NCBI GenBank assembly: GCA_903844815.1
Contig: CAIMVD010000174.1
Coordinates: forward strand, 1 to 37,859
DNA: 37,859 nucleotides
Reading direction: 5' to 3'
From: an uncultured Bacteroidota bacterium
GTDB lineage: Bacteria; Bacteroidota; Bacteroidia; Bacteroidales; VadinHA17
Shown here piece after piece: positions 22,301 through 37,859 of the stretch. The number at the start of each line of letters is the position of its first letter. Within the stretch, counting starts at the first letter, position 1. A model generated the notes under the pieces. It had not been told where the DNA came from. It was given only the letters and a program-made list of their open reading frames with translations, and did no database searches. The translations under genes and the position numbers were made by a program.

Positions 22301-25300
22301 AGGACAACATCAGCAGTAACGATTATCGTCAAGAATGTTATAATAAATCATTCTCCTGTTGCTGACGCAGGGCTATACGAGACTTACTATGTCAACGAGA
22401 CAGTTAATCTCAACGGATCTGGATCTTCTGATCCTGATGGAGATCCTCTTTCTTACTTTTGGGCTGCACCGCCAGAAATAATTCTTAACTCTGCTACTGC
22501 TCCAAATCCGTTGTTTACTGCTCCAGATGTTACAAGCAGTACGGGTTACACTTTTACGCTGAGAGTCAGCGACGGGCAAAATACTTCACTTCCTGACAAT
22601 GTTGTAATCAATATAAGTCCTCCTGATCAGCAATATGATCCGCTTGATCCGGTTTCAAATGCCGGAACTGATCAGTTGGTGAATGAAGGGACAATTGTTA
22701 CACTCGATGGGTCAACGTCGGTCAGCCCGGAAGATAAACAGCTTACCTATAACTGGGTATGCCCTGCCGGAATCACCCTTAGCTCTTCCGTTTCCTCTAT
22801 GCCAACCTTTTCTGCACCTGAGGTAACGAAAAGGACGCTTTATACGTTTTACCTGACAGTAAGTGACGGCAGCAGGATTTCCGCATCAGATCAGGTGGAG
22901 ATCATAGTAAACAATAATGTTGAAAATGCGGATCCTGAAGCAAATGCGGGAGGCAGCCAGGTTGTAACCGAAGGATCAATGGTTATCCTTAATGGAACGG
23001 GGTCCTTTGACCCTGATGGAGAAACAGTGACTTACATCTGGTCAGCGCCGGCAGGAATAACATTAAGTTCGGTTAAAGAGGCTGTTCCGACTTTTACAGC
23101 TCCGGATGTCCTGACCCAGACTGACCTTACTTTTAGTCTGGTTGTAAATGATGGAATCCTGAATTCCATACCGGCGACAGTAAAAGTCCGGGTTCTTGAT
23201 AAGGACCAGCAGATTTGTACTCTTGGTGTTGCTCCTTCTGAAATAAACTCTGAGTATTCATCCGGAGGATATTCAACTTTTGCCGTGACTACTGAATGTT
23301 CATGGACAGCCGCAAGTGATCAGGAATGGTGTATCGTAACTACCTCCGGCGCTGCAAACGGTACAATTACGGCAAACTACACAGCAAATAACACTGCAAG
23401 TACAAGAAAAGCCAATATAACAGTAACAGTGAACGGGCAATTTCCTGTTGTTGTTACCCTGATGCAAGCGGCAATGCTTTTCGTTCCGGTCCTCACAACA
23501 TCCGCGATAAGCTCTGTCAGTTATACCTCAGCTGTTTCAGGTGGTATCATTGCCAGTGACGGAGGTTCGGCAATTATATCGAGGGGTATATGCTGGTCAA
23601 CTGCGGTAAATCCTTCAATTAATGATTCAAAAACGATCAATGGAGCCGGAACCGGGGTTTTCACCAGTGAATTAACGGGATTGTTGCCCGGAACTACTTA
23701 TCATGTCCGTGCCTATGCCAGCAATAGCGTTGGTAATTCGTATGGCAATGAATTAACAGTTACAACTTCAACACATTTTGTTCCAGTCTGGTGGCCGGGG
23801 AATGGTACTGAACACATGAACCTGTATGTTTTGTATGCAACAATCGATAATGCAGACCTTCAACCCGGAGACGAAATAGGAGTATTCGACGGCGATATAT
23901 GTGTTGGTATGGGCATAATAACTGCTGTACTTGATGGGACCACTATCTATCTGTCCATCAGGGTGTCGCAGGATGATCCGGATACCCAGGTAACAGACGG
24001 CTATATTTCAGGTCATTCCATAAACTACAGGATTTGGGACACAAGCGAGGGTGCAGGTTACTCCTCCTGTGAGGCAATATATAAATCGGGACAAGGAATC
24101 TTCGCCCCGGGTTCCTCCTCCTCCTTTAATTTGTCAGCAACCTCTTCAATTACACAATCGATTAAACTTGCATCGGGATGGAACATAGCTTCTTTTGCCA
24201 TTTTACCCTCCAATATGTTATTGAAAAATATACTTGATCCGCTTATAGTTGCAGGGACACTTGTAAAGGTGCAGGATAAGAAAGGAAACGCCATCGAGAA
24301 ACTTCCTGTAATAGGTTGGGTCGATGCCATTGGAATGATGAAAATAACTGAAGGATATAAGATAAAAGTGTCGGCTGCAGTAACTCAAAGTTTTACGGGT
24401 CTTCCTGTTACATTACCACAGACTGTATCGTTTGATGCCGGATGGAATATCATGGGGTATCCGTCACTCTTCTCCCAGGCTGCACTGACGGCATTCGATC
24501 CCCTGGTAACGGCCGCAACGCTAATAAAAGTTCAGGACGAAAAGGGAAATGCAATTGAGAAACTGCCAGTAATAGGATGGATCGACAATGTAAAGACACT
24601 TCTGCCAGGGAAAGGATACAAGATTAAGACCTCTGCAACCACATCCTTGACTCTAAATAATGCCACTAAAGGCACTTCCATTGCCGAGACACCCGAGGAA
24701 AAGATGAAGACCTCACATTTTATACCAGGCTTCACCGGCAACGGTTTAGAACATATGAATATCTATATTTTCAATCCTGCAATTGAAGGAGTTGGTTTGG
24801 GGGCAGGCGATGAGATAGGGGTATTTGACGGAGATGAATGTGTCGGATCCGTTGTAATAGAAACTGCAGGAAGGGATTATTACATGATTGCAGCTTCACT
24901 GGATGATCCATTAACCGATAAAAAAGATGGCTTCATGCCAGGAAATACACTAAAAATGAAGCTTTGGGATAATCACACGGGTACTGAAGTTAACCAGGGT
25001 GAAACCATTTTTGCCAAAGGATATGCTAATGCATTTGAAAAGAATGGTACAACTACACTGTCGGTGAATTTTGAAAGAGAATACAAAACTATCCTGGGTG
25101 ATGCTTTTCCTAATCCTTCAACTAAAAGCACAACTTTTATTTACCAGCTTGAAAGAGAATGTGATGTGCGGCTTGAGGTTCTGGATATTTTTGGACATAC
25201 TGTTAAGACACTCACGGATGGAATGATGCAAACAGGTTTACATAAATCAGAATGGGACAATGCTACCGTAACTGGTGAGCGGGCCAAGCCCGGAATATAT

Positions 25301-25357
25301 TTCTACAGGCTTAAAACGAGTAACAATGTTATAACCAAAAAACTAATCATTAATTGA
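16328..25357 (+). CDS. T9SS-exported M6-type metalloprotease with M23-like, SLH-like, PKD, BACON and Fn3-like domains (3009 aa)
   Basis: A hydrophobic signal peptide (residues 1-24) is followed by a propeptide. The M6 (immune inhibitor A type) zinc protease has HEFGH at 320-324 and the third ligand D330 (HExxHxxGxxD), then GHWDLMGAGNW. A second putative peptidase of M23/LytM type spans about 595-735: H615 and D619 (HxxxD), a YQH near 673, and H717-L-H719-F-E, so the zinc and catalytic residues appear intact. Two SLH-like domains (910-967 with FTDV and MTRGQAAKVL; 983-1040 with RFTDVD) and a degenerate third (to about 1135) follow. Next: PKD 1287-1369 (WNFGDGS, HTY); six repeats of an EY-FD...GLHT unit (20440-21765); five PKD/REJ-like Ig repeats (21784-23200, NAG and GS-DP/DG motifs); BACON 23212-23475; Fn3-like 23490-23770; cassette A-B-B'-A' 23774-25080; T9SS type A sorting domain. 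Inferred extracellular protease, possibly with peptidoglycan-cleaving activity. Confidence 0.93.
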   Translation: MRYFLNIFFCVVFFLTGAASLLAVSAYPYPVTITQKDGTRISVIQKGDEFISWFQTTDGFTILRNSEGIFEYAILNSDNNLVISGIKARNNQDRTSSDRLFLMGVKRGLSYSRKQASIAKSASGITETSPQKAFPAKGKRKLVCILMGFSDVPFTKTKSDFQNLFNQTGYSEDDASGSVKDYFREVSYNQLDLDVTIAGPYTAAHEMAFYGGNITNGDNIEIKDVRHRDMMYEALSAADPDINFSDYDNDNDGTVDGVYIIYAGHGEEATFGTAPDAIWAKAGFLLPVTHDGISISRYACSSELRLDTGNGISRIGVICHEFGHVIGAADYYDTDNSDAGNFEGTGHWDLMGAGNWNNNGATPAHPNPYVKVYIYSWASATTITSEVLVTMYSAEQSNNSFIRIDTQSPDEFFLIENRQQVLLFDKAIPYHGMIIYHVDGRYIDKNPLSINAGMHQGMYPVCANATGNPPLDYGMIDKNEGLPFPGKSNRQVFSNTTIPSAKSWLGEDTKLTLVNIRETNGEISFQVIGPKEPQAEESGGFDYPIGNRGYLNSITACIPQQINPEYNPLFLSADLSSTDMIASVDRGASGKSDWYVSSDAGNFAPKGVPSHAGLHPAEDWNLGPNATSDVGQPVYAVANGEVWQIRPTTSGNLVVLKHTMTDGHIYYSIYQHITAVYYNGVPNASGVCVGDDKMGYSLHDYFTKGMQIGRIASGPNHLHFEIRDGSYIELFTPSGSKNTQGFTGIGIYPLGQSNGYYTSSKSTSWDNITNAANLQSKDLQAAVENMKKDGIVDPSDFIESHRPVVYPINGGAEIYGGSPSDPLKDIRIIFSIPQKSFQVTDAKINGASIYSKASFGMISFMGGGYYNTMMDLSKTKDLISYENKTYDLEITLTNNVTLLGKINFCDPNGFTDVSDWLKSYVKALAEKGIVKGSMSGNNLLFSPDNYMTRGQAAKVLVTSAFELNLRTNAYPDLTHLINLSGQRFTDVDAENAFFPYVQTLRNWKTLKNEPCISTANSKFNYNSNITIAQFAKILCNVFNLTEADENTGSLKNGGVIGSSVKLINSPTNDLVAFVNIISNILVTDLETEIPELLITSFKDLTQEDLLSSVIEINCDALVKRSMMAKVIANAYGYKLNKAKNRTTAPTEVMAIADSTGVGSSALISGLGSYTIIGDKFELNNINSGTEIDEPLTSKVRMKSGEIRTFDFLKDSWDGAPMFFYWALDNGEMESLRANHRAVKVTAPSGITEPLTIRLYSFRGTALGNSAETYFNILVEPSGPAVVTKLTPDFAANITDGRGPLPVQFSNTTRIPAGTSQVSYLWNFGDGSTANDPSPAHTYLQPGTYTVSLTATSSSENIKTIKTGFITVVDYNASASLVAVEYYFDSDPGVGKGTLLSSASQPYLVATNNIDISGLTTGLHTIYFRAKDNMGVWGAPQLRPFLVTDDDTGSPVHELASAEYFLDNADNRILSHSVTRNSDIQFTRKIDISQTSEGLHTLMIMVRDRSGLRSNILSRPFYVSCTAALSPEIAEYEYSIDQAENWTSYRLSIPSLDNSGSMNIGLSQVPEGLHTFNIRAASKGGYAGAFVSRSFYANNSATVEDVKAIEYAFDNAAEFTQIRNFNSGSDVNYSTILPLDALTTGLHTLNIRAVSSGGKYSSVYSRPSYISTGPERTELNEIQFAFDNSSDFKTLISGINDTVVDVTGKIGTGDLSDGLHTLFIKVTNSSYLNGNILSKPFYAFSPENRKYGITAIEYSVDSDPSAGGATQLSFDPGKDVTASAALNLTSLSAGSHSISVRAKDEISQWSYSKTNLFQVLDNNNQAPVANAGNDQSVAEYSIVTIDGAGSYDPEGSALTYQWNAPGLTLNLSNPVKPSFKVPEIISNTDFTIDLVVTDGISSSQSDRVVIHVLNVEVNHPPVSVIDAALSVDEELQVTLNGSASYDEDGNPLTYLWTAPSGIRLSSVTTQGTTFMAPSVQSDTPFELKLTVSDGTLRTTSAVTIIVKNVIINHSPVADAGLYETYYVNETVNLNGSGSSDPDGDPLSYFWAAPPEIILNSATAPNPLFTAPDVTSSTGYTFTLRVSDGQNTSLPDNVVINISPPDQQYDPLDPVSNAGTDQLVNEGTIVTLDGSTSVSPEDKQLTYNWVCPAGITLSSSVSSMPTFSAPEVTKRTLYTFYLTVSDGSRISASDQVEIIVNNNVENADPEANAGGSQVVTEGSMVILNGTGSFDPDGETVTYIWSAPAGITLSSVKEAVPTFTAPDVLTQTDLTFSLVVNDGILNSIPATVKVRVLDKDQQICTLGVAPSEINSEYSSGGYSTFAVTTECSWTAASDQEWCIVTTSGAANGTITANYTANNTASTRKANITVTVNGQFPVVVTLMQAAMLFVPVLTTSAISSVSYTSAVSGGIIASDGGSAIISRGICWSTAVNPSINDSKTINGAGTGVFTSELTGLLPGTTYHVRAYASNSVGNSYGNELTVTTSTHFVPVWWPGNGTEHMNLYVLYATIDNADLQPGDEIGVFDGDICVGMGIITAVLDGTTIYLSIRVSQDDPDTQVTDGYISGHSINYRIWDTSEGAGYSSCEAIYKSGQGIFAPGSSSSFNLSATSSITQSIKLASGWNIASFAILPSNMLLKNILDPLIVAGTLVKVQDKKGNAIEKLPVIGWVDAIGMMKITEGYKIKVSAAVTQSFTGLPVTLPQTVSFDAGWNIMGYPSLFSQAALTAFDPLVTAATLIKVQDEKGNAIEKLPVIGWIDNVKTLLPGKGYKIKTSATTSLTLNNATKGTSIAETPEEKMKTSHFIPGFTGNGLEHMNIYIFNPAIEGVGLGAGDEIGVFDGDECVGSVVIETAGRDYYMIAASLDDPLTDKKDGFMPGNTLKMKLWDNHTGTEVNQGETIFAKGYANAFEKNGTTTLSVNFEREYKTILGDAFPNPSTKSTTFIYQLERECDVRLEVLDIFGHTVKTLTDGMMQTGLHKSEWDNATVTGERAKPGIYFYRLKTSNNVITKKLIIN
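23774..25080 (+). repeat. Shared stalk cassette A-B-B'-A', copy 3
   Basis: A 23774-24140, B 24150-24400, B' 24415-24670, A' 24710-25080 in the 3009 aa metalloprotease. Protein motifs match the other copies, but the DNA is clearly more diverged than between copies 1, 2 and 4. Confidence 0.85.
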
Positions 25358-25390: not shown

Positions 25391-28300
25391 ATGAATATGA
25401 AAAACCGCTTAAGTATTTTGGTTATTGTTTTAGCATCTCTGTTTTCAAATAATAAAACACTGGCGGTTACGGCTTATCCTTTACCTGTAGATATTACTCA
25501 GAAGGATGGCTCAAGACTGACAATTATTCTTCGTGGCGACGAATATATTAAATGGGCTGTTACAACAGACGGTTATTCACTTCTCAGGAATAAAGGAGGA
25601 ATTTATGAATATGCCGTATTGAATAGTGATAACGACCTTGTGCCCTCAGGAACTGCTGCCAGAAACAGGGAGGACAGGAGTATTACTGATGAGGCTTTCC
25701 TCAAAGGTGTCAATAAGGGATTGTCCTATTCAGGAAAACAGAAAGGAGTTATGAAAAGTATCATAAACCTCTCTTTAACAGCGCCACAGAAAGCCTTTCC
25801 CACCACTGGATCAAGGAAGCTTGTTTGTATACTAATTGGCTTTAAGGATGTAGCCTTTCAAAAAGCAAAATCCGATTATGAAAACCTGTTTAACCAGGTC
25901 GGATACAGTACTGATGGTGCTTCAGGGAGTGTTTATGATTTCTATAAGGAAAACTCCTATGGTAATCTTGATTTGACTGTAACGGTTGCAGGTCCGTTTA
26001 CCGCGGCAAACAATATGGCATATTATGGCGGAAATGATGTAAATGGCTACGACATGAGACCAAGGGACCTTGTTACAGAAGCCGTTAACCTGGCAAATTC
26101 TTCAGTGAATTTTGCCGATTTTGATAATGACGGGAACGGTTACGTCGATGGGGTTTATGTCATCTATGCCGGTTACGGGGAAGAGTATGCCGGTGTTAGC
26201 AGCGATGCTATATGGGCACATGCCTGGGGTATAACACCTGTGACACTTGACGGGAAGATAATAAGCAGTTATTCATGTTCGTCGGAATTACGAGGTAACA
26301 GTGGTTCCAATATTACGCGTATCGGAGTGATTTGTCATGAATTCGGTCATGTTATGGGGGCACACGATTATTATGATACAGATTACGAAACAGGCGGTCA
26401 ATACAGCGGCACAGGTATCTGGGATCTTATGGCAGGGGGAACATGGAATAATTCCGGTGCAACACCTGCTCATCATAATCCATATACAATTATTAATTCA
26501 TACGGATGGGCTTCGGCTACAACTCTCAGCTCTTCGTTGGGCATAACCATGACAAATGCAGAACAAAACTCTGGCAGTTTTTACAGGATAAATACAACCA
26601 CCGCAAATGAATATTTTTTATTGGAGAACAGGCAACAGCATAAGTTTGATACGCAGATTCCAGGCCATGGGTTGATAATATATCATGTTGACGACAATTA
26701 CATTTCCTCCAATGCCTATGAAATAAATGCAGGGGAACACCAGGGAATGTACCAGGTATGCGCCAGTGCTGCAGGCAATCCTCCTTCTGACTATGGCACA
26801 ATCAATGCAAGTGGCCTTCCGTTTCCGGGAAGTTCGGGAAAAACATCCTTTTCTGATCTTACAACACCTTCATCTCAGTCGTGGGCCTTGGCCAATACAA
26901 ACATAATAATCAGCAATATAGCTGAAAATATAACCAATAAGACAATAAGTTTTGATTTTACTCCTGTTGCAACAGTTAGTCGTCCTGCTTTAAGCACAAC
27001 AATAGTTTCATCAATCACAATATCTGCAGCCTCCTCCGGCGGTAATGTAACTTCTGATGGCGGTGGACCGATTACTTTAAAAGGAGTATGCTGGAGTATT
27101 TCATCAGGTCCAACTATGACTGACAATAAAACCGTCGACGGAAGCGGGACCGGGATATTCTCAAGCTCCATTACAGGATTAACTTCCGGAACTACCTATT
27201 ATGTAAGGGCCTATGCAACCAACAGTGCAGGAGGAGCTTATGGCAATGAAATTAGCTTCACAACAAATGCAGTTAGTTTACCTGTAATTACGACTTCACC
27301 CATAACATCAGTTTTATATAGCTCATCAATTTCAGGTGGTGAAATAATATTTGATGGTGGTAGTGAAATTACTGCACGAGGTGTTTGCTGGTCAGAATCA
27401 TCAGATCCGACGCTTTCAAATTCTTTGACGAACGATGGAACCGGAACGGGTCAATTTGAAAGCAGCATAACCGGACTATTGCCTGGAAAGACATATCATG
27501 TCCGCGCTTATGCAACCAACATCGGCGGCACCTCATACGGAGAGGATTTATCCTTCAACACAAAGTCGGTTGAAGTTCCGATTCTAAATACAACTGACAT
27601 ATCTTCCATTCTGAAAACATCGGCTTTTTCCGGAGGCAATATTACTTCTAATGGAGGTGCAGAAATTACTCAACGAGGTGTATGTTGGAACAATACAGGA
27701 AATCCAACCAAATTCAGTGCCTATACCTCCGATGGAACGGGAACAGAGTCTTTTACCAGCAGGATTACAGGGCTTACAGGAACTACAACTTATTATGTCA
27801 GGGCATATGCCATTAACAGCGCCGGAACATCTTACGGAAATCAGGTAAGCTTTACAACTTCAGCAGATGAGTTAATACCAACGGTTTCTGCACCACACAT
27901 GCCAGAAGGTTATACAAAGACTTCAGTTACTTTATATGGAGATGTTTCAAGCGACGGCGGAGCTGATGTTTTAGAAAGAGGAGTGTGTTGGAGTACATCC
28001 GTTGATCCCACAATTGATGGTGATCATGTCTTTAATGGTTCTGGTCTGGGAGCATTTACCTGCAGTATAGCAGGGCTTACTCAAAACACAACATATTATG
28101 CCCGCGCATATGCAACCAATAATGCAGGAACTGCCTATAGCTGGAATAGTGTGTTCAAAACAACGTTGGGAATCGTTTTTAATCCAGATTTAAAATATGG
28201 ATCTGTGAAAGATATTGACGAACATACATACAAAACAATTCAGATTGGAAACCAGACATGGATGGCTGAAAACCTCAAAACAACTAAGTACAACGATGAA

Positions 28301-30409
28301 ACGCCAATTCCGAACATTACTGATGATGTATTATGGTCAGCCTCTTTGGAAGGTGCCTATTGCGACTATATAAATGCCCCGGCAACTTCCGAGGAGTACG
28401 GAAGATTGTACAATTGGTATGCAGTGGATAATAACACTGTCACTAAAAATGCAAGCAACAAAGGTAAAAATGTTTGTCCGATAGGCTGGCATGTGTCATC
28501 TGAAGATGACTGGACAACACTGGTTGACTATCTTGGAGAAACAACAGCAAGTGCAGCCCTTAAGGAAGAAGGATCATCACACTGGTTCGCCAATAATGGG
28601 ACAAATTCATCAGGTTTTACCGCCATTAGTTGTGGTTACCGCAGGGATGCTTATCTGGCTATGGGCTGGTGGAATTTTCTCTGGGAATCCCCAGTATCCA
28701 ATTTTGATCCGGAGGCAACAGCTGCGCGATGTATTATAAGTAATTATGGTTATGTAACTAAACCAGGAGGAGCTAAGAATTGGGGCTTTTCAGTACGTTG
28801 TGTTCAGGATGTAAATCCTCCTTTACCCCAGTATTTTGCCCCGGCCTGGTGGCCTGGGAATGGGATCGACCATATGAACCTTTATGCACTTTCGGCTACC
28901 CTGGATGGAACAGACCTGCAGCCAGGCGATGAAATAGGTGTGTTCGACGGGAATCTTTGTGTCGGGGCTGGGATCATGACCGAGGCACTTGATGGCTCAA
29001 ATTATCTGGCTGTTTCTGTTTCAAAAGATGATCCGGATTCGGAAGCTAAGGAGGGATATACATCTGGAAACAGCATTGCTTTTAGAGTTTGGGATTATAG
29101 CTCCGGGTCTGAGATAAGCTACGTAAATGCCAATTATATTTCGGGAGTAGGTATCTTTTCACAGGGTGCCAGTGCTACGTTCAACCTCTCGGCAATATCT
29201 TATCTGATTCAGAATGTTAGCTTGGCCTCAGGATGGAACATTATCTCGTTTGCAATTATCCCTCCTGATATGTCGCTCAAGACAATTCTCAATCCCCTTA
29301 TTACAGCCGGAACTCTTGTAAAAGTCCAGGATAAGAAGGGAAATGCAATTGAACAGATTCCGGTAATAGGATGGGTTGATAATATCGGCGTTATGAAGGT
29401 CGCTGAAGGGTACAAGATCAAGGTCTCGACAGCTGTTTCACAGGATTTTACCGGACTTCCGGTTACTCTGCCATATACAATCAGCCTTGATGCAGGATGG
29501 AACATAATGGGTTACCCGTCACTCAGCGCCCAGGCAGCCCTGACCGCGTTTGATCCCCTGATAACTGCCGGAACGCTCATAAAAGTCCAGGACGAAAGGG
29601 GTAATGCAATAGAAAAGATTCCTGTGATAGGATGGATCGACAATGTTAAGAACCTTAACGGGGGTAAAGGCTACAAGGTAAAAACAAGTGTAGGCACAAC
29701 ACTTATAATAACCGCTCCCGGGAAGGGAGAATACTTTGCAGAAGAGACGTTAAAATCCTCCCCAAGCCATTTTAAAACTGCATGGAGCGGAAACGGTCTC
29801 GATCACATGAATATCTATATAACCAAACCCACTCTTGGAGGTGAAGGTCTGAAAGCAGGAGACGAGATAGGAGTATTTGACGGGATCGTGTGTGTGGGTG
29901 CTGTGGTAATTGAAGACCCGGAAAACGGATTCTTCATGGCAGCAGCTTCGCTCGACGATCCTGTCACAGATGTCAGGGACGGTTTCACTCCTGGCAACGA
30001 ACTTGTGCTGAGGCTGTGGGACAGCAGGACGGGAACTGAGAGTATGGTAAAGGAAACGGATTACCAAAAGGGATATGGAAAGTTCTTTGAGAAGAATGGA
30101 ACCACGGTGCTGAAAGCCGATTTTGAAAGAGAGGGAAAAACGGTTCTCAGAGATGCCTTTCCTAACCCCTCAAAAGAGAGGACCACCTTCACCTTCGAAA
30201 CGGAAAAGGAGTCAGATGTACGGCTTGAGTTATTTAATGTTAAGGGCGACCTTGTAAAGATACTTGTCAATGACAGGCTCAGAGGAGGAGTTCATAATAT
30301 TGAATGGGACAACAGGTCGGGAAGCAGGGAAAAGGCCGGTGCAGGAATATACTTCTACAGACTGAAAACAGACAGGTTTATTCAGACTAAACAATTAGTA
30401 GTTTATTAA
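25391..30409 (+). CDS. T9SS-exported M6-type metalloprotease with Fn3-like repeats and FISUMP domain (1672 aa)
   Basis: Starts 33 bp after its paralogue; likely the same operon. The ATG at 25391 or the in-frame ATG at 25397 both give a signal peptide (to about residue 25, ending near TLAVTAYP). The propeptide and M6 protease (about 130-510) match the upstream gene: H316-E-F-G-H320 with D326, then TGIWDLMAGGTWNN, so the active site looks intact. Four Fn3-like repeats common in Bacteroidota follow (26980-28170; GVCWS, TGLTSGTTYYVRAYATN). A FISUMP / Fibrobacter major paralogous domain lies at 28190-28810 (IGNQTWMAENLKT, GRLYNWYAV, CPIGWHVSSEDDW). Then cassette A-B-B'-A' (28830-30135) and a type A T9SS sorting domain (30138-30406, AFPNPS, GIYFYRLK). 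Likely an extracellular protease with a long binding tail. It lacks the M23, SLH and PKD parts of its paralogue. Confidence 0.93.
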   Translation: MNMKNRLSILVIVLASLFSNNKTLAVTAYPLPVDITQKDGSRLTIILRGDEYIKWAVTTDGYSLLRNKGGIYEYAVLNSDNDLVPSGTAARNREDRSITDEAFLKGVNKGLSYSGKQKGVMKSIINLSLTAPQKAFPTTGSRKLVCILIGFKDVAFQKAKSDYENLFNQVGYSTDGASGSVYDFYKENSYGNLDLTVTVAGPFTAANNMAYYGGNDVNGYDMRPRDLVTEAVNLANSSVNFADFDNDGNGYVDGVYVIYAGYGEEYAGVSSDAIWAHAWGITPVTLDGKIISSYSCSSELRGNSGSNITRIGVICHEFGHVMGAHDYYDTDYETGGQYSGTGIWDLMAGGTWNNSGATPAHHNPYTIINSYGWASATTLSSSLGITMTNAEQNSGSFYRINTTTANEYFLLENRQQHKFDTQIPGHGLIIYHVDDNYISSNAYEINAGEHQGMYQVCASAAGNPPSDYGTINASGLPFPGSSGKTSFSDLTTPSSQSWALANTNIIISNIAENITNKTISFDFTPVATVSRPALSTTIVSSITISAASSGGNVTSDGGGPITLKGVCWSISSGPTMTDNKTVDGSGTGIFSSSITGLTSGTTYYVRAYATNSAGGAYGNEISFTTNAVSLPVITTSPITSVLYSSSISGGEIIFDGGSEITARGVCWSESSDPTLSNSLTNDGTGTGQFESSITGLLPGKTYHVRAYATNIGGTSYGEDLSFNTKSVEVPILNTTDISSILKTSAFSGGNITSNGGAEITQRGVCWNNTGNPTKFSAYTSDGTGTESFTSRITGLTGTTTYYVRAYAINSAGTSYGNQVSFTTSADELIPTVSAPHMPEGYTKTSVTLYGDVSSDGGADVLERGVCWSTSVDPTIDGDHVFNGSGLGAFTCSIAGLTQNTTYYARAYATNNAGTAYSWNSVFKTTLGIVFNPDLKYGSVKDIDEHTYKTIQIGNQTWMAENLKTTKYNDETPIPNITDDVLWSASLEGAYCDYINAPATSEEYGRLYNWYAVDNNTVTKNASNKGKNVCPIGWHVSSEDDWTTLVDYLGETTASAALKEEGSSHWFANNGTNSSGFTAISCGYRRDAYLAMGWWNFLWESPVSNFDPEATAARCIISNYGYVTKPGGAKNWGFSVRCVQDVNPPLPQYFAPAWWPGNGIDHMNLYALSATLDGTDLQPGDEIGVFDGNLCVGAGIMTEALDGSNYLAVSVSKDDPDSEAKEGYTSGNSIAFRVWDYSSGSEISYVNANYISGVGIFSQGASATFNLSAISYLIQNVSLASGWNIISFAIIPPDMSLKTILNPLITAGTLVKVQDKKGNAIEQIPVIGWVDNIGVMKVAEGYKIKVSTAVSQDFTGLPVTLPYTISLDAGWNIMGYPSLSAQAALTAFDPLITAGTLIKVQDERGNAIEKIPVIGWIDNVKNLNGGKGYKVKTSVGTTLIITAPGKGEYFAEETLKSSPSHFKTAWSGNGLDHMNIYITKPTLGGEGLKAGDEIGVFDGIVCVGAVVIEDPENGFFMAAASLDDPVTDVRDGFTPGNELVLRLWDSRTGTESMVKETDYQKGYGKFFEKNGTTVLKADFEREGKTVLRDAFPNPSKERTTFTFETEKESDVRLELFNVKGDLVKILVNDRLRGGVHNIEWDNRSGSREKAGAGIYFYRLKTDRFIQTKQLVVY
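28830..30135 (+). repeat. Shared stalk cassette A-B-B'-A', copy 4
   Basis: A 28830-29200, B 29205-29450, B' 29465-29720, A' 29765-30135 in the second metalloprotease. The first half resembles copy 3, while the end of B' and A' carry blocks identical to copies 1 and 2, so this copy looks mosaic. Confidence 0.85.
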
Positions 30410-30453
30410 GGGGGACATAGCCGGGAATTCTCAAAACATAAATGACTGACCGG

Positions 30454-30488
30454 AAATACTCTGAAATTTGATATTTCAGAGTGTTTTT
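30454..30488 (+). terminator. Rho-independent terminator after the M6 protease gene
   Basis: The left arm ACTCTGAAAT (30458-30467) pairs perfectly with ATTTCAGAGT (30473-30482) around a five-base loop. The stem can extend outward through a T-G wobble and three A-T pairs. Five Ts follow at 30484-30488. It lies 45 bp after the stop of the 25391-30409 gene and separates the metalloprotease unit from the dockerin/cohesin unit. Confidence 0.8.
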
Positions 30489-30611
30489 GTTGTGAAATTA
30501 ATGGGGTAAACCTTAAAATCGTTCATCCTAGAACCTGAAATACCCTGCGTTAAGAAAATATCTGCCGTAGTTCAAGCTTAAAATTCATGCGTTCAGCCTT
30601 ATTGGAACAAA

Positions 30612-30832: not shown

Positions 30833-33800
30833 ATGAAAAAAGTAATAAAATCTACTGATATGAAAATTCTTTACGCTGCACTGTTATTGTTTGTGTCTGC
30901 ACTGACGCTTAATGCCCAGGAAGCAGATAAATTTGCAAAGACCGATGCCCGTACCGGTGAAGCTGTTATTCCCGGGAAAATGGATTTTGTGCCTGGCGAA
31001 ATCCTGATAAAGTTCAGGGACGGGGTCAGCATTACTCCGGAAGCTCTGTTGGCCGGCTCATCCCTTTCAAAAGGGGTAAATTCCACCCTTGGCAACTATA
31101 AGGTTACTAGGGCAGAAAAGCTCTTCCCCCTTGCAAAGACCAGGAAAAGCCTTCAGGTTGTAAGGACCCCCCAGGGAACAGAAATGGTAATACCAAACCT
31201 TTCAAATATCTTCAGGATTGTATTACCTGCTGAATCCCAGGCAAAAGGCTTACCTGTAAACCTAATGGAAGTGATTGAGGAATTAAAGCAATCGCCCGAA
31301 GTTGAATATGCCGAGCCAAACTATTACTATTCTATAGGCAGTTTTAAACCTGAATCTCCTGAAATGAGTCTGGTTGAGGCAAAGAACTGGACAAATGAAA
31401 ATTATTCTTTAAAAGGTCAGACGGGTCTTCTTCCTAACGACCCGTTGTACGGATCGCAGTGGGGTATTCCGGCAATCAAGGCCGACGAGGTGTGGAATAC
31501 ACATACAGGAGATACTACTTCGATAATAGCTATTCTCGACACCGGAGTTGATCTTCTCCATCCTGACCTCGTAGAGAACATCTGGACAAACCCGAATGAA
31601 ATCCCGGGAAACGGAAAAGACGATGATGGCAATGGTTACATTGACGACGTTTACGGATGGGATTTTATAAATAATGACAATGATCCCAAAGATGACAATT
31701 CGCACGGAACACATTGTGCAGGTATCGCGGCTGCAACAGGTGATAACGGGATAGGCATTGCAGGGGTAAACTGGAAGGCAAGAATAATGGCTGTTAAGGT
31801 TTTCCAGTCTTCGGGCTGGGCCGATGCTGCCACGATTGCAAAAGGTATAAACTATGCCGCACAGAAGGGTGCCACTGTTATATCGATGAGTTTCGGAGGT
31901 TATGGTGAATCCTATACTACCAGAAGTGCCCTTGCAAATGCATATGCAACAGCTGTACTTGTGGCAGCTGCAGGGAATGATGGTCTATGTATCGGACCCG
32001 GGAGGTGTCCCGACATGAGGCCAGGCCAACCCTTGTTTCCCGGGGCATATTCTTTTGTTCTGGGTGTTGAAGCGCCGCCAAGTCCGCCCAATGGTTTTAC
32101 CAACTATGACCAGGACGGACCCGTATTTTCTGCTTATCAGGATCAGCTTAATTATGAACTTAAGGCCCCTGGTACGGGTATACTTTCGTGTGTCCCTGGA
32201 GGAAATTACAGAAGTTATAGCGGTACATCAATGGCAGCACCCATGGTGGCAGGAGCTGTCTCATTGTACAGGGAATTAAAGAGTAGTGACAGCCAGGAAC
32301 TTATGTGGGGTAATTTCATCAACACACTTTCAGCTTATATCGATGTTAAGAGTGCAGTTACAGTTATCCCAAAACCTGTATTAAATGTGATCAGATATTC
32401 CGTTTCCGATACACTTGCCGGAGGTGGGGGGGACAGGGATATGAAGGCTGATGCAGGAGAAACAATCCAGCTAGAAATCTTTGCAAGAAATTCCTGGGGT
32501 CCTTCCGATAGTATTTTTGTGGGAGTGGAATTTGCTGAATTTGAAGATCAGTCAACTGCTGCCATTCTTCAAAGTGAAACCATGATTGGTTCAATAGGAG
32601 CTTATTCTAACCTATCGAATTTTATTGATCCTCTCGAAATTAAAATAAATTCTATAGTTGCACATGGAAGAGAAATTAAGTTCATATTGAAAACCTGGAA
32701 AGGGAAACAACACCTTTCTGAATCATTATCTCCGCTCAATATCAGAGTTGAACATGGTACAGAGCTTATCGGAGTCCTCGAGGACACTCTTATTTTGACC
32801 CCCGATAAATTTTGGCTGGTTTCAAATAGTTTTAAAATAGGAACAGATGGAATTCTGATTATTAAACCCGGGACAACCATAAAAATTGAAAAAAGGGTAA
32901 TTAATTATGGTAAGATACTCGCAGCAGGGACAAAGGATTCCACTATTCAAATTATAGGTCCAGAAGGAATTACAAGTGGAAGAGAACTAAAATTCGAGCA
33001 CACAAATTTTACAGGAATTGGTGTTATTTTAGGAAATGGGGCCTCCTCCTATGAAAGTTGCAGATTTGAAAATATAAGCAACATTAGTTCTATTTCTGAT
33101 AACTATTCAGGATTAGGGATTTCAGCACGAAATTGTTTATTTAAAAATATTAATTTCAAGACTTGGGGATTTCCATCCACATTAATATTTTCACAAACTA
33201 GCAATTTACTAATAGAGAAATCCAACTTTTATAATATAGACGGAGGAGGTGTTTATACAATTGCCACAAATGGCAAAATAACAGGGTGTAATTTTTCTGG
33301 ATTTAATGATAATTCCTTTTATGCCCTCCCAACTTCTTCAGAATTTAGTAATAATAATATTCTAACAAATGCAAAATATTTTTATTCTGTAATCTCAGGA
33401 ATATCCTTGAATTTACCGAATGTTTATTGGGGAACAACTGATTCTGTAAAAATTTCAAAAGTTATTGTTGATTTTTGGGATGATGCGGGAAGATCATTGT
33501 TGAAGTATAAACCATTGCTTATCAAGCCAAATCCGTTAGCCCACGGCTGCGTCTGGAAAGTTGTTGTTAACGGCTTTGACGCCCAGGATGAATTTAAAAT
33601 TCTTGACCCTCTTGGCATTGGCAGGCACAAGTTCGAAGTTTATTTCAATCGTCCGATGGATGTAAAATACCCTCCAACCGTTACAATGGGTGTAAGGTAT
33701 CCCTACAACCAGATGTCAATAAATGAGAATGGCTCCTGGAGCCCTGATTCATTGATTTATACTGTCTATAAAACTTTGGGACTTACCCAGACCGACGGCA

Positions 33801-35020
33801 TAAACAGGATACAGGTCACAGAAGGTAAGGACACTGAAGGATTCGACCTTGTTCCCGAAAATGAGCGGTTCAATGTAAATATTCAGTCACAGGGATCACT
33901 CTCCACCGATTTCATGGCAACGCCCGGAATGGGAAAGGTGTCGCTCGAATGGTCTTCACCCGAAAAGGAGGTAAGTGACCTTTTGGGCTACAATATGTAC
34001 CGCTACTCCTATATTAATGATTCGGTAACAACCGATACTCTTCTTGTAAGCAAGTCGCTGTTATCCGATACTCTTTATACCGACTATACTGTTGTTCCCG
34101 CCACACGTTATTTTTATACCTATAAAACAGTTAAGACCGACTTCTCCGAGAGTGCATTCTCAAAGGTGGTTGCGGCTACTCCCTTCACCGCAGCCAAGGG
34201 CGATGCCAACGGCGACCTTGCAGTTAATGTCTCCGATATTATCACAACAGTTTCATATATCCTCGTAAAAAACCCTGCGCCATTTATCTTCGAGGCTGCC
34301 GACATTAATTCTGACGGTACAATAAACGTGCTTGATGTAACGGGAATAGTGAGCAGGATACTTAATCCAGCCAAATCAGGGATACAAAATAATTCCGATG
34401 TAACGGCAACTCTTTTCTTCAGGAACGATACTGTGTTCATAAGCACCGAGGTTCCGATTGCAGGGATTCAGTTCACGCTTCATAATTTAACAGCCGATGG
34501 TTATACTTTACTGCCGGGGGTTGACGGATTCGAAAAGGCAGTAAATTTCAATGCCGACTCGCTTCTATTCATTGCTTATAGCATGAGCGGCAAAACAACC
34601 GGTCCGGGTGTTGTTCCTGTACTGAAGCTCAAATCGAAATCGACCTGGCTTGACCGGCTTGTCCTGTCTGATCCTTCGGGAAAGAGCATAACCGGAATCA
34701 TAACCAAAGACGCAAGTCCGGCGGCAAATGTTAACAGGCTTGGAGGCCTGTTCGAACTCGGGCAGAACTTTCCGAACCCGGTTTCAGGTGAGACAACTAT
34801 TACCTTCCGTCTTCAGAGGGCTGTTGATGAAGCCGTATTTACAATAATCGACTCTCAGGGAAGGGAAATCGATCAGTTAAGGATTGAACAACCCTCGGAA
34901 GGAGAGAATCATTTTACATGGCGACCGCGCACTGCAAGAGGTATTTACCTCGGAAAACTGTCGGTGAGACTCTCGGGAACATATTCTTCGGAGAAGAGCA
35001 TCAAGATGATTATAAAGTAA
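30833..35020 (+). CDS. T9SS-exported subtilisin-like (S8) protease with beta-helix, Fn3-like and type I dockerin domains (1395 aa)
   Basis: Start taken at ATG 30833; ATG 30860 also gives a signal peptide (MKILYAALLLFVSALTLNAQ), and an upstream TTG at 30827 is unlikely. Propeptide about 50-170 (VPGEILIKFRDG, VEYAEPNYYY). The S8 catalytic domain runs about 205-485 with D236 (AILDTGVD), H291 (NSHGTHCAG), oxyanion N382 (AAAGNDG) and S466 (SGTSMAAPM), all present. Then come an uncharacterised stretch, an AT-rich beta-helix (32795-33525), a Big_5-like strand set (HKFEVYFNRPMDV) and an Fn3-like domain. Dockerin at 1123-1177: two Ca-binding loops with D1124-N1126-D1128-D1135 and D1157-N1159-D1161-D1168. 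A cohesin-like beta-sandwich segment (34399-34700) and a divergent type A T9SS sorting domain (34740-35017; NFPNPV, GIYLGKL) follow. It does not carry the A/B cassette. Likely an active extracellular protease that can dock to a cohesin; the next gene encodes candidates. Confidence 0.93.
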   Translation: MKKVIKSTDMKILYAALLLFVSALTLNAQEADKFAKTDARTGEAVIPGKMDFVPGEILIKFRDGVSITPEALLAGSSLSKGVNSTLGNYKVTRAEKLFPLAKTRKSLQVVRTPQGTEMVIPNLSNIFRIVLPAESQAKGLPVNLMEVIEELKQSPEVEYAEPNYYYSIGSFKPESPEMSLVEAKNWTNENYSLKGQTGLLPNDPLYGSQWGIPAIKADEVWNTHTGDTTSIIAILDTGVDLLHPDLVENIWTNPNEIPGNGKDDDGNGYIDDVYGWDFINNDNDPKDDNSHGTHCAGIAAATGDNGIGIAGVNWKARIMAVKVFQSSGWADAATIAKGINYAAQKGATVISMSFGGYGESYTTRSALANAYATAVLVAAAGNDGLCIGPGRCPDMRPGQPLFPGAYSFVLGVEAPPSPPNGFTNYDQDGPVFSAYQDQLNYELKAPGTGILSCVPGGNYRSYSGTSMAAPMVAGAVSLYRELKSSDSQELMWGNFINTLSAYIDVKSAVTVIPKPVLNVIRYSVSDTLAGGGGDRDMKADAGETIQLEIFARNSWGPSDSIFVGVEFAEFEDQSTAAILQSETMIGSIGAYSNLSNFIDPLEIKINSIVAHGREIKFILKTWKGKQHLSESLSPLNIRVEHGTELIGVLEDTLILTPDKFWLVSNSFKIGTDGILIIKPGTTIKIEKRVINYGKILAAGTKDSTIQIIGPEGITSGRELKFEHTNFTGIGVILGNGASSYESCRFENISNISSISDNYSGLGISARNCLFKNINFKTWGFPSTLIFSQTSNLLIEKSNFYNIDGGGVYTIATNGKITGCNFSGFNDNSFYALPTSSEFSNNNILTNAKYFYSVISGISLNLPNVYWGTTDSVKISKVIVDFWDDAGRSLLKYKPLLIKPNPLAHGCVWKVVVNGFDAQDEFKILDPLGIGRHKFEVYFNRPMDVKYPPTVTMGVRYPYNQMSINENGSWSPDSLIYTVYKTLGLTQTDGINRIQVTEGKDTEGFDLVPENERFNVNIQSQGSLSTDFMATPGMGKVSLEWSSPEKEVSDLLGYNMYRYSYINDSVTTDTLLVSKSLLSDTLYTDYTVVPATRYFYTYKTVKTDFSESAFSKVVAATPFTAAKGDANGDLAVNVSDIITTVSYILVKNPAPFIFEAADINSDGTINVLDVTGIVSRILNPAKSGIQNNSDVTATLFFRNDTVFISTEVPIAGIQFTLHNLTADGYTLLPGVDGFEKAVNFNADSLLFIAYSMSGKTTGPGVVPVLKLKSKSTWLDRLVLSDPSGKSITGIITKDASPAANVNRLGGLFELGQNFPNPVSGETTITFRLQRAVDEAVFTIIDSQGREIDQLRIEQPSEGENHFTWRPRTARGIYLGKLSVRLSGTYSSEKSIKMIIK
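34199..34363 (+). other. Type I dockerin domain (within the S8 protease)
   Basis: There are two F-hand repeats: GDANGDLAVNVSDIITTVSY and, 33 residues later, DINSDGTINVLDVTGIV. Calcium positions 1, 3, 5 and 12 are D/N/D/D in both loops. Positions 10-11, which set cohesin specificity in clostridial type I dockerins (often S-T), are V-S and V-L here. The asymmetry hints that a dual binding mode is less likely (inference). Confidence 0.9.
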
Positions 35021-35099
35021 CAACTGACAGCAGATTCCGGATTGGAGACAGGGAATTGGGATTTAAACAATAATATTCTGGTTTAAAAACAGAGAGAAA

Positions 35100-37859
35100 A
35101 TGGCAAGGATACGTATCATCAAATTATTCCTGGCGGTGATGCTAACAGTCATTATTCCAGGGAAAACCTTTGGAACCAATACTCTATACGTTCAGGATGC
35201 AGCGGCAGGACCCGGGAAAAGCGTGACTGTTTCGGTTGGGGTCAATAACAGCGATACCTTCAGTGCCCTTCAGTTCGACCTGGTATTTCCGTCGGTTCTC
35301 ACCTGGACAACCGATGCCGTAAGGCTCACCTCACGGGCGCAGGGTCACTCCTTCTCCGCTTCGCTTATCGAGCCGGGAAGGCTCAGAATTGTTGCATGGT
35401 CCTTCGCAAATGCAAGTTTCACAGGCAGTTCGGGCGCAGTTGTTGAAATTGACTTCAAGACAGGTGATGCTCCCGGCGGCTATCCAATTACGCTTGGTAA
35501 TGCAACCCTTGGAGGTGCATCGGGGAATATTTTATCAGGAACTACTTCAGGTACTTTTACCCTCCAGTCGCCTTCAATAAGTTTATCATCAACACTTATC
35601 AGCTGGGGCAGGGTGCCGATTCTGAGCGAGTCGTTTCAAACACTTACAATCACAAACACCGGGAATCTTGACCTTAACGTAAGCAAACTGGACTTTGCTG
35701 ATATAAGATTCACAACACCTGTAACAGTACCATTTACTCTCAGTGCAGGAACTTCAATACAGATCAGCATAAGGTTCTATTCTGCAGTTAAGGGTACAAT
35801 AAGCAGCAGACTGATAATAAACTCAAACGACCCGTCGGGGACTAAAAATTGTGACCTCAGCGGTGTGGCATTTGCGGTGAACGAAATTCATATAGGAACG
35901 GCCACGGGACGATCGGGCTATGAAGTCACGCTTCCTGTCACCATTAACAACATGGAGCCAATGACGGCCTTTCAGATTAAGATAAAGCTTCCCGTGAATG
36001 CAAGGTTTGTCAGAGGATCGGAGAGTCTCAGCCTTTCGAGAAAAATCGATCATATCCTGGTGGCTGATACGACCAGGGGCATACTTACTATCGTTGCATA
36101 TTCACCTGCCAATAAATCCTTTCTTTTAAATGAGGGGGAAGTGCTCACCTTTAAACTTTTTACGGAAGGCCAGGGAGGAAGGTACGCTTTGGAATATCAG
36201 GAACCGGTTATTTCGGGAACTGACGGTCAGAATAGTTTGTCGGCAACTTACAGCGGATGGGTCGAGATCGCAGCGCCTGTGCTTTCGGTAAGCACATCAG
36301 TTCTGGATTTCGGTAATGTTTCATCGCTCGAAACCAACTCAAAGGATCTTGTGATATATAATAATGGCAATGATAATCTAATAGTCACCCAGATAAGCGT
36401 GGGCGACAATGCATTTAAGCACAATGCCACACTTCCTTTCACCCTCACACCAGGGCAGAACAAGGTCATAGCCATTACTTTCGGCGCCACCGATGGCCTG
36501 AGCCACCAGGCAACTTTGAGGATACGCAGCAACGACACCCCGAGGGATCCGACTGATGTTACCCTAAAAGCAAAGTCGTTCTTCCCGAACGAACTTCGCA
36601 TACCTGACATGACGGCAGTTACGGGGATGCTGGATACACTGTACCTTGAATTGTTCAACCAGCTCCAGTCATCAGGCTTCCAGTTCGACATTGAGTTTCC
36701 GGCAGGGACATTGCCTTCACCTGCTTCTGTCTTTCTTACAAACCGAAAGGCAGATCACATGTTTATTGCATCAGCCCTCACGGAAACGAAACTTCGTGTA
36801 CTGTCATATTCTTTTTCTCTAAAACCATTCTCAGGAGCTTCAGGATACGTGCTCGGGATCCCTTTCAGGGTTACGGCAACAACCGAGGGTACCTATCCGA
36901 TAACCATTTCGGGTGTCGAAATTAGCGACCTTGCCGGAAAGTCGATAGTTACAGGCTCTAAGTCGGGTAATATCCTTATATCGTACCTTTCGCAGTCCAT
37001 TACCCTCACCGCGGGGTGGAATATTATTTCCTTTGCCGTACAGCCCCCGGATATGTCGCTGAAAAACATGCTATCCCCGTTGATAGCCGACGGTACACTC
37101 CTGAAGGTGCAGGACGAAAAAGGAGCAGCCATTGAGAAGCTGCCAGAACCAATAGGGTGGATAAACAATATCGGGACAATGAAGCTCCCCGAGGGATATA
37201 AGATTAAGGTCACAACAGGATCGGCCAGGACTTTCTCAGGGCTGCCTGTGACTCTCCCATACACTATCTCTCTCGATGCCGGGTGGAACATTATCGGATA
37301 CCCTCTTTTGACTGCTCAGCCGGCGCTAAATGCTTTCAGTCAGCTCGTATCATCAGGAACCCTGTTAAAGGCTCAGGACGAGAAGGGCAATGCCATTGAG
37401 AAGCTTCCCGATCCGATTGGATGGATCGATAACATAAAAACTCTCTCACAGGGAAAGGGATACAAGGTAAAGGTTTCTGCAGCTTCATCGCTTCTGTTAA
37501 ACAATGCTTCAAAAGGATTATCCGATTATGAAACGGTAAACACGGAAAGCCCGGTTCATTTCAGTAAGGTCTGGAACGGAAACGGTCTAGATCAGATGAA
37601 TATTTATATAACAAATCCGACACATGAAGGCAAAAGAGTTGAAGCCGGAGATGAGATTGCAGTTTTTGATGGGGTTTCCTGCGTTGGGACAGTAGTAATA
37701 GACGATCCGCAGAGAGAATACTTCATGATTACGGCTTCGCTCGACGATCCTGTTACAAACGAGAGAGACGGATTTATTCCCGGCAATAAGCTGGAATTAA
37801 GGCTTTGGGACGGCAAATCGGGAGAAGAGAAGGTCGCCGGACAAACTGAGTTCAGCAAA
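35100..37859 (+). CDS. Scaffoldin-like protein with three cohesin-like domains and the shared cassette, 3'-truncated by window edge
   Basis: The ATG lies 79 bp after the protease stop. The frame is open for 920 codons to the end of the window. The signal peptide is MARIRIIKLFLAVMLTVIIP, continuing to TFG. Domains: cohesin-like 1 (35175-35570; VTVSVGVNNSDTFSALQFDL), ASH/choice-of-anchor D 1 (35576-35875; LTITNTGNLDL, LIINSNDP), cohesin-like 2 (35875-36270; VTLPVTINNMEPMTAFQIKI), ASH 2 (36272-36585; LDFGNVS, LRIRSNDTP), cohesin-like 3 (36587-36981; LYLELFNQLQSSGFQFDI), then cassette B (36990-37255), B' (37260-37510) and most of A' (37550 to the end). By analogy a T9SS sorting domain should follow outside the window. 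Inferred role: surface or secreted scaffold that binds dockerin proteins such as the preceding protease. Cohesin assignment rests on fold pattern by eye; domain 3 is the most divergent. Confidence 0.88.
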   Translation, partial: MARIRIIKLFLAVMLTVIIPGKTFGTNTLYVQDAAAGPGKSVTVSVGVNNSDTFSALQFDLVFPSVLTWTTDAVRLTSRAQGHSFSASLIEPGRLRIVAWSFANASFTGSSGAVVEIDFKTGDAPGGYPITLGNATLGGASGNILSGTTSGTFTLQSPSISLSSTLISWGRVPILSESFQTLTITNTGNLDLNVSKLDFADIRFTTPVTVPFTLSAGTSIQISIRFYSAVKGTISSRLIINSNDPSGTKNCDLSGVAFAVNEIHIGTATGRSGYEVTLPVTINNMEPMTAFQIKIKLPVNARFVRGSESLSLSRKIDHILVADTTRGILTIVAYSPANKSFLLNEGEVLTFKLFTEGQGGRYALEYQEPVISGTDGQNSLSATYSGWVEIAAPVLSVSTSVLDFGNVSSLETNSKDLVIYNNGNDNLIVTQISVGDNAFKHNATLPFTLTPGQNKVIAITFGATDGLSHQATLRIRSNDTPRDPTDVTLKAKSFFPNELRIPDMTAVTGMLDTLYLELFNQLQSSGFQFDIEFPAGTLPSPASVFLTNRKADHMFIASALTETKLRVLSYSFSLKPFSGASGYVLGIPFRVTATTEGTYPITISGVEISDLAGKSIVTGSKSGNILISYLSQSITLTAGWNIISFAVQPPDMSLKNMLSPLIADGTLLKVQDEKGAAIEKLPEPIGWINNIGTMKLPEGYKIKVTTGSARTFSGLPVTLPYTISLDAGWNIIGYPLLTAQPALNAFSQLVSSGTLLKAQDEKGNAIEKLPDPIGWIDNIKTLSQGKGYKVKVSAASSLLLNNASKGLSDYETVNTESPVHFSKVWNGNGLDQMNIYITNPTHEGKRVEAGDEIAVFDGVSCVGTVVIDDPQREYFMITASLDDPVTNERDGFIPGNKLELRLWDGKSGEEKVAGQTEFSK
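35175..36981 (+). other. Three cohesin-like domains alternating with two ASH-type domains
   Basis: Each cohesin-like unit shows the usual order: a 'G..V.VPV.INN'-like strand, 'G(F)QF.L.FP' next, a 'RI(V)AYS' strand in the middle, and a 'Y.I...ATLGG..G' C-terminal sheet. The spacers have the 'DFG.V....S....TI.N.GN.DL' and 'L.I.SNDP' signatures of ASH (ASPM/SPD-2/Hydin) domains. The alternation looks like a scaffold built from binding domains and rigid spacers. Confidence 0.7.
36990..37859 (+). repeat. Shared stalk cassette, copy 5 (B-B'-A' only, cut by window end)
   Basis: The first A domain is absent and cohesin-like domain 3 abuts B directly. B begins GWNIISFAVQPPDMSLK, and both B domains keep the QDEKG...AIEKLP core. 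A' is nearly complete when the window ends. Confidence 0.8.

Follow-up and report, generated by a model that had tools for sequence, protein, structure and literature searches.

A dockerin-bearing protease and an adjacent triple-cohesin protein as a probable dedicated pair in Bacteroidales

Most of what is known about cohesin-dockerin assembly comes from organisms that degrade cellulose. We asked what it may serve at the end of a contig of an uncultured Bacteroidales bacterium, where the gene of a dockerin-bearing protease is followed by that of a multi-cohesin protein, a pair that an earlier note had proposed to form a protease-bearing, cellulosome-like complex exported by the type IX secretion system (T9SS). 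The window, i.e., the whole stretch of DNA analysed, is the entire contig C174 (37,859 nucleotides), and all the features described below are on its forward strand. The two genes probably constitute a conserved, dedicated protease-scaffold module whose products would be exported and would dock onto each other outside the cell.

The protease gene (30833 to 35020) has an in-frame ATG at 30833, with an alternative at 30860, and its stop at 35020. Pfam detected a Peptidase_S8 domain in the product (152 bits), and the catalytic domain (31520 to 32293; PF00082, E = 2.7e-44) contains an intact Asp/His/Ser triad, in agreement with the subtilisin-like protease described earlier. An ortholog with 42% identity is present in genome G209. 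The dockerin (34196 to 34354) scored 29.1 bits with Dockerin_1 (PF00404; cut-off, 22.9) and 34.9 bits in the genome search. The D-x-N-x-D-x3-N-x2-D pattern occurs in both of its EF-hand-like calcium loops, confirming the two-loop type I dockerin with D/N/D/D ligands that had been read from the sequence. A feature overlooked by the earlier note is a short cohesin-fold domain, invisible to Pfam, located between the dockerin and the T9SS tail (34388 to 34711); it is the fourth cohesin fold of the locus, and a cohesin-FN3 construct was the top-ranking Foldseek match of the protease end. The last domain (34733 to 35017) is the T9SS C-terminal signal domain. Over this stretch, FlgD_ig exceeded its cut-off of 27 with 30.1 bits, and Por_Secre_tail, at 19.7 bits, fell short of its own, also 27; the predicted structure supports a sorting domain, as proposed in that note, and the assembly contains SprA, a core T9SS gene. 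Judging from the model, the protease would be exported by this system.

The scaffold gene (35100 to 37859) starts 79 bp after the stop of the protease gene, the distance given before, and its open reading frame reaches the end of the contig, with 920 aa read. Three cohesins (35175 to 35570, 35874 to 36278, and 36576 to 36989) alternate with two ASH/PapD-like spacers (35571 to 35873 and 36279 to 36575), the first of which matched HYDIN_VesB_CFA65-like_Ig and SPD-2/HYDIN-like structural rows. Pfam reported two stretches each of Cohesin (PF00963; 52.2 bits, above the cut-off) and HYDIN/ASH (80 bits). The third cohesin was missed by Pfam and detected with a home-made profile (E = 1e-5), and AlphaFold2 models aligned with VIA-align showed the cohesin fold in all three; the three cohesin-like domains and ASH-type spacers noticed earlier were thus borne out. 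Foldseek searches with the array ranked cilia ASH proteins at the top because the ASH spacers dominate it, and the VIA-align rows resolve the cohesins. The structural matches include cohesins from outside cellulosomes, those of Archaeoglobus fulgidus (2xdh) and Clostridium perfringens NagJ (2jh2/2w1n), which share the fold with our locus and to our knowledge do not belong to a paired protease-scaffold module. No carbohydrate-binding module (CBM) was recognized by Pfam within the 920 aa read, the C-terminus being beyond the contig end. The last part of the frame (37017 to 37859) is a C-terminal module that also occurs in the contig's four giant secreted proteins, with six further long copies in the genome that are 58 to 70% identical. 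As the M6 protease encoded at 25391 to 30409 has the same module followed by a T9SS tail, such a tail is expected past the contig end, and the scaffold is most likely exported by the T9SS as well.

Between this M6 protease gene and the pair, a terminator-like hairpin (30451 to 30489) has a 17-pair stem, a free energy of -19.8 kcal/mol, and a z score of -5.5, consistent with the upstream terminator claimed before, though it was absent from the list of a simple terminator scan. The six genes that precede the pair (2 to 30409) code for two PA14/GLEYA proteins, a beta-helix protein, one other protein, and two M6 metalloproteases of 3009 and 1672 aa. The four giant proteins end with a T9SS tail and have the 281-aa C-terminal module in common with the cohesin protein. 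The 3009-aa metalloprotease (16328 to 25357) also harbors an M23 peptidase stretch (residues 628 to 724) and an SLH domain (910 to 953), odd companions in a T9SS protein. The assembly has the C-terminal module on three of its contigs, none of the 12 same-genus genomes searched has it, and contamination of the assembly was estimated at 3.8%; for these reasons the contig may be either recently acquired or wrongly binned. This caution about the host leaves the conclusions drawn below from 79 named loci untouched.

We then considered in which sense the locus is cellulosome-like. Cellulosomes combine a scaffoldin with several cohesins and several dockerin enzymes, mainly glycoside hydrolases. The cohesins, the dockerin, the protease and its T9SS signal were all borne out, and the three-cohesin protein agrees with the scaffoldin of a cellulosome; for many different dockerin enzymes on one scaffold, this genome gave no support. 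The search for other dockerin proteins that the earlier note had suggested returned a single PF00404 match at E ≤ 0.001, the protease itself, and PF00963 also gave one match; the multi-enzyme sense is therefore unsupported here. No cohesin match was found in 24 same-genus genomes. An alternative is that the three cohesins recruit different dockerin proteins, of which the protease is one. It is encouraged by genomes of the order that are rich in both domains, such as G027 with at least 16 dockerin and nine array-profile matches, by the distinct cohesin positions (see below), which could serve distinct partners, and by a precedent in Cloacimonadota, as far as the available text of that report goes (PMC8542988). 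Dockerins diverged beyond the reach of the profile and a draft that is 97.8% complete leave some room for it. Nevertheless, the single dockerin match in the genome of the window, and in each of G209 and G045, which hold related pairs, makes this alternative quite improbable. A dedicated pair of one kind of protease and one scaffold is the better reading.

Cohesins and dockerins are associated more generally in the order. Among its 393 genomes, 83 have both, 24 have cohesins only, 56 have dockerins only and 230 have neither (Fisher p = 3e-26, kinship being ignored). In 80 other genomes with a single PF00404 match, eight of these matches scoring below the family cut-off, a cohesin gene lies directly downstream of the dockerin in 25 and directly upstream in three (L111, L119 and L167, two of which also have one downstream); six of the 80 contigs stop within 100 bp behind the dockerin frame. 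The payloads of the dockerin genes scanned with Pfam were S8 in the window, L091 and L085, M6 in L092, kelch and beta-helix in L074 and L081, and beta-helix in L084, L086, L098 and L100; none was recognized in L087. The dockerins of L085, L087 and L086, below the Pfam cut-off or unlisted, rest on the home-made profile. Five genomes, G027 (including contig C25, locus L177), G072, G295, G203 and G099, have from 10 to at least 16 dockerin matches and 4 to 10 cohesin-array-profile matches, and are candidates for true multi-enzyme cohesin-dockerin complexes. A second class of dockerin proteins (L097, L123, L124, L125, L147, L152), of approximately 1230 to 1370 aa, matches the cohesin profile with the last 140 residues, which leaves no space for an additional T9SS tail. 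No cohesin neighbour was found for this class; the L124 contig ends at once.

To look at the pair itself, named genomes were searched with a profile built from the alignment of the dockerin, cohesin-fold domain and tail only. This yielded 157 confirmed loci, and 79 from the best 80 were analysed. The S8 domain is present in 72 of these 79, and five of the seven others are cut by the contig start. A cohesin gene lies directly downstream in 69 and directly upstream in two more; the downstream genes code for at least three cohesins in 64 cases and for ASH domains in 68. In the other eight, neither neighbour is a cohesin gene; the contig ends within about 1 kb in three, and more than 2 kb of contig is left in five (L180, L192, L239, L244, L255). 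Frames in the relatives run from stop to stop, and intergenic gaps refer to frame edges rather than start codons. There is some redundancy in the set, since L193 and L194 have identical lengths and scores, one MAG supplies three loci (L223, L225, L233) and another two (L251, L255). As the loci were fetched by the dockerin-to-tail profile alone, with the S8 domain and the neighbour gene scored afterwards, we rejected the idea that the two genes are neighbours by chance. Conservation of the gene pair supports a functional partnership of the two proteins.

Judging by their labels, the hosts of these 79 loci, from the best 80 of 157, are mostly Bacteroidales MAGs, many of rumen or gut origin; others are the isolate Ancylomarina salipaludis, two Prolixibacteraceae MAGs, one KSB1 and two Marinimicrobia MAGs. 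A full protease-scaffold pair also occurs in a MAG labelled Clostridium sp. (L213), perhaps a labelling or binning error, as this type of protein belongs to T9SS phyla. When the 393 genomes were searched with this family's array profile, a near-full triple-cohesin array was present, among the matches listed, in six genomes, and all six arrays adjoin a dockerin-tail match, with a one-cohesin frame in between in G361 and G239. A full array is missing beside three (G047, G161 and one in G027) of the nine strongest dockerin-tail matches of the order. The matches in G209, G045 and the genome of the window are self-matches of the profiles, and the first two seem to be L216 and L236.

Part of the family appears to be more elaborate. 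Nine scaffolds among the 79 loci, from the best 80 of 157, carry a terminal dockerin, and a further cohesin gene lies behind the scaffold in all nine, compared with one of 39 that lack the dockerin (p = 6e-9); when each genome counts once, the association holds in 7/7. This comparison used 48 of 66 three-cohesin pairs, the 39 without dockerin having at least 900 bp of contig left; 16 pairs with less than 900 bp and two in reversed order were left out, and L251, where the three-cohesin gene lies behind a one-cohesin gene, is outside the 66. Searches of the scaffold C-termini of 56 relatives (E ≤ 0.01) detected TIGR04183, a T9SS sorting domain, in 21, Por_Secre_tail in 13 and a dockerin in nine. 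By eye, the C-terminus of the third genes printed resembles a short sorting tail. Genetically, the strongest indication that the parts would bind each other is that the scaffold dockerin and the further cohesin gene occur together. In MAG SIG119 (L223, L225, L233), the whole three-gene module occurs in three copies, which offers a chance to see if the plugs and sockets of paralogues have diverged together.

Residue conservation, identity and co-evolution were compared in 61 of 67 pairs, including the window. The S8 triad and the oxyanion Asn are invariant (61/61). In the dockerin, positions 1, 3 and 12 of loop 1 and the D, N, D, N/D and D ligands of loop 2 are kept in all 61; at position 5 of loop 1, 51 members have Ser and 10, the window included, have Asp. 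These data bear on the possibility that dockerins and cohesins do not bind each other at all, their folds having been kept as rigid calcium-stabilised or adhesive modules of large surface proteins. In its favour, dockerin, cohesin and Ig-like folds are combined in these proteins, and what the dockerin genes of the order carry as payload differs greatly, from kelch and beta-helix to M6 and S8. The conserved calcium ligands, the pairing and order of the genes, and the scaffold dockerin accompanied by a further cohesin gene would be hard to explain in this manner, which makes it very improbable.

Mean identities within cohesin positions 1, 2 and 3 are 41%, 41% and 28%, and 21 to 28% between positions. 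As the three are distinct in sequence, they need not all bind the same dockerin. With S8 distances controlled for, the dockerin correlates with cohesins 1, 2 and 3 (partial r = 0.37, 0.41 and 0.43; 0/500 permutations each), and the cohesin-fold domain of the protease correlates with them below the values of the dockerin (0.22, 0.23 and 0.10). The co-evolution signal is weak, because the correlation of the FN3-like domain with cohesin 3 comes close to that of the dockerin (0.40, and 0.22 with cohesin 2); it is suggestive and supports binding without deciding the matter.

The cohesin fold of the protease itself counts against our explanation, since it sits a short linker away from the dockerin and could capture it. 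The dockerin might thus engage the domain right behind it, either its own or that of a second protease molecule, and serve as a clasp or chain link; the scaffold would then be a co-expressed adhesin. In many of the other dockerin proteins inspected, cohesin-like sequence likewise lies behind the dockerin, and the dockerin and its own cohesin-fold domain correlate given S8 (partial r = 0.34). That domain, however, is only 13 to 16% identical to the array cohesins, and this arrangement leaves unexplained both the adjacent cohesin gene in 71 of 79 loci, from the best 80 of 157, and the association of the scaffold dockerin with a further cohesin gene. We consider it unlikely; the domain could instead serve as a stop-gap clasp before docking.

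For the dedicated pair, we propose docking outside the cell: the dockerin of the protease, loaded with calcium, would plug into one or more cohesins of the neighbouring scaffold. The ASH domains would act as spacers between the cohesins, so that one scaffold could carry as many as three molecules of the protease, all of one kind because there is a single dockerin gene for the three sockets. It may also be that one socket is for the protease and the others, being distinct cohesins, are for partners beyond recognition by the profile. In some relatives, the scaffold's own dockerin and the cohesin of the third gene would fasten the entire assembly to a second protein acting as an anchor, and the purpose of such surface display would be to break down external protein. 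The broader proposal has about even chances in our estimation: a widespread cohesin-dockerin machine for protein rather than carbohydrate, in which a T9SS-exported subtilase would sit in up to three copies on a conserved three-cohesin scaffold, which in part of the family would use a dockerin of its own to dock onto a third protein, an anchoring one with a cohesin. Such a machine would be a minimal counterpart of the cellulosome, built from three genes, in Bacteroidales and other phyla with a T9SS.

If so, the assembly logic of the cellulosome would be used for protein degradation in a different phylum and with a different secretion route, and a relative of the cellulosome that digests protein may have been overlooked. 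The module is a testable two- or three-part system, and it could provide new cohesin-dockerin pairs for engineering. It may also help explain the prevalence of peptidase-dockerin fusions in one rumen consortium, where peptidases are, in the portion of the report accessible to us, the commonest catalytic domains fused to dockerins (PMC7480376). In the open-licence PMC literature, as far as its accessible text extends, we found no description of this protease-scaffold gene pair. Excerpts of related work show that a survey of 305,693 genomes targeted dockerin-fused glycohydrolases and scaffoldins, with 'Bacteroid' appearing solely in two references of the text available (PMC11557425). Among 913 rumen genomes, proteins with two to six cohesins were reported in 15, nine of them near R. 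flavefaciens, and the remaining ones could include this module, going by the available extract (PMC5830445). Dockerins are listed in Alistipes, Bacteroides and other Bacteroidales of the cockroach gut in the part of that study at hand (PMC10266427).

The following comparisons are with the known systems as they appear in the accessible parts of the papers cited. Clostridial and ruminococcal cellulosomes share with our locus the cohesin and dockerin folds and a multi-cohesin scaffold (PMC11557425), and some relatives of the window resemble them further by a scaffold dockerin and a separate cohesin protein; in contrast, neither a glycoside hydrolase nor, in the part read, a CBM was found at our locus, which has a single dockerin protein and predicted T9SS export. 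The S8 protease of Clostridium thermocellum is likewise a subtilase with a dockerin and is believed to attach to ScaD, a cell-bound scaffoldin, but it has a double dockerin and belongs to a large cellulosome, with no dedicated neighbour scaffold described in the text available (PMC12484212). A scaffoldin of Acetivibrio mesophilus, with FN3 repeats and a C-terminal Coh1-Doc1 unit and likened to ScaO/ScaO2, also unites an S8-peptidase-like domain, a cohesin and a dockerin in one protein; it differs in that the cohesin precedes the dockerin and that the organism is a cellulosome producer, and the available passages report no T9SS tail or three-cohesin partner gene (PMC11557425). A further close system is that of Ca. 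Stygibacter (Cloacimonadota), for which a protease-bearing, T9SS-anchored cellulosome-like complex has been proposed, so that the general idea of S8 and C25 dockerin peptidases with a T9SS-anchored scaffoldin is already published (PMC8542988). Both have S8 peptidases (and, in Ca. Stygibacter, C25 peptidases) with C-terminal dockerins and a cohesin scaffold with a T9SS-type C-terminal domain, the latter expected in our case. As described in the accessible text, Ca. Stygibacter has several dockerin enzymes, GH18 and GH57 among them, and a 3,755-aa scaffoldin with CBM2/CBM3, whereas the window is set apart by one protease gene beside a compact coh-ASH-coh-ASH-coh protein, a pair that is conserved (PMC8542988).
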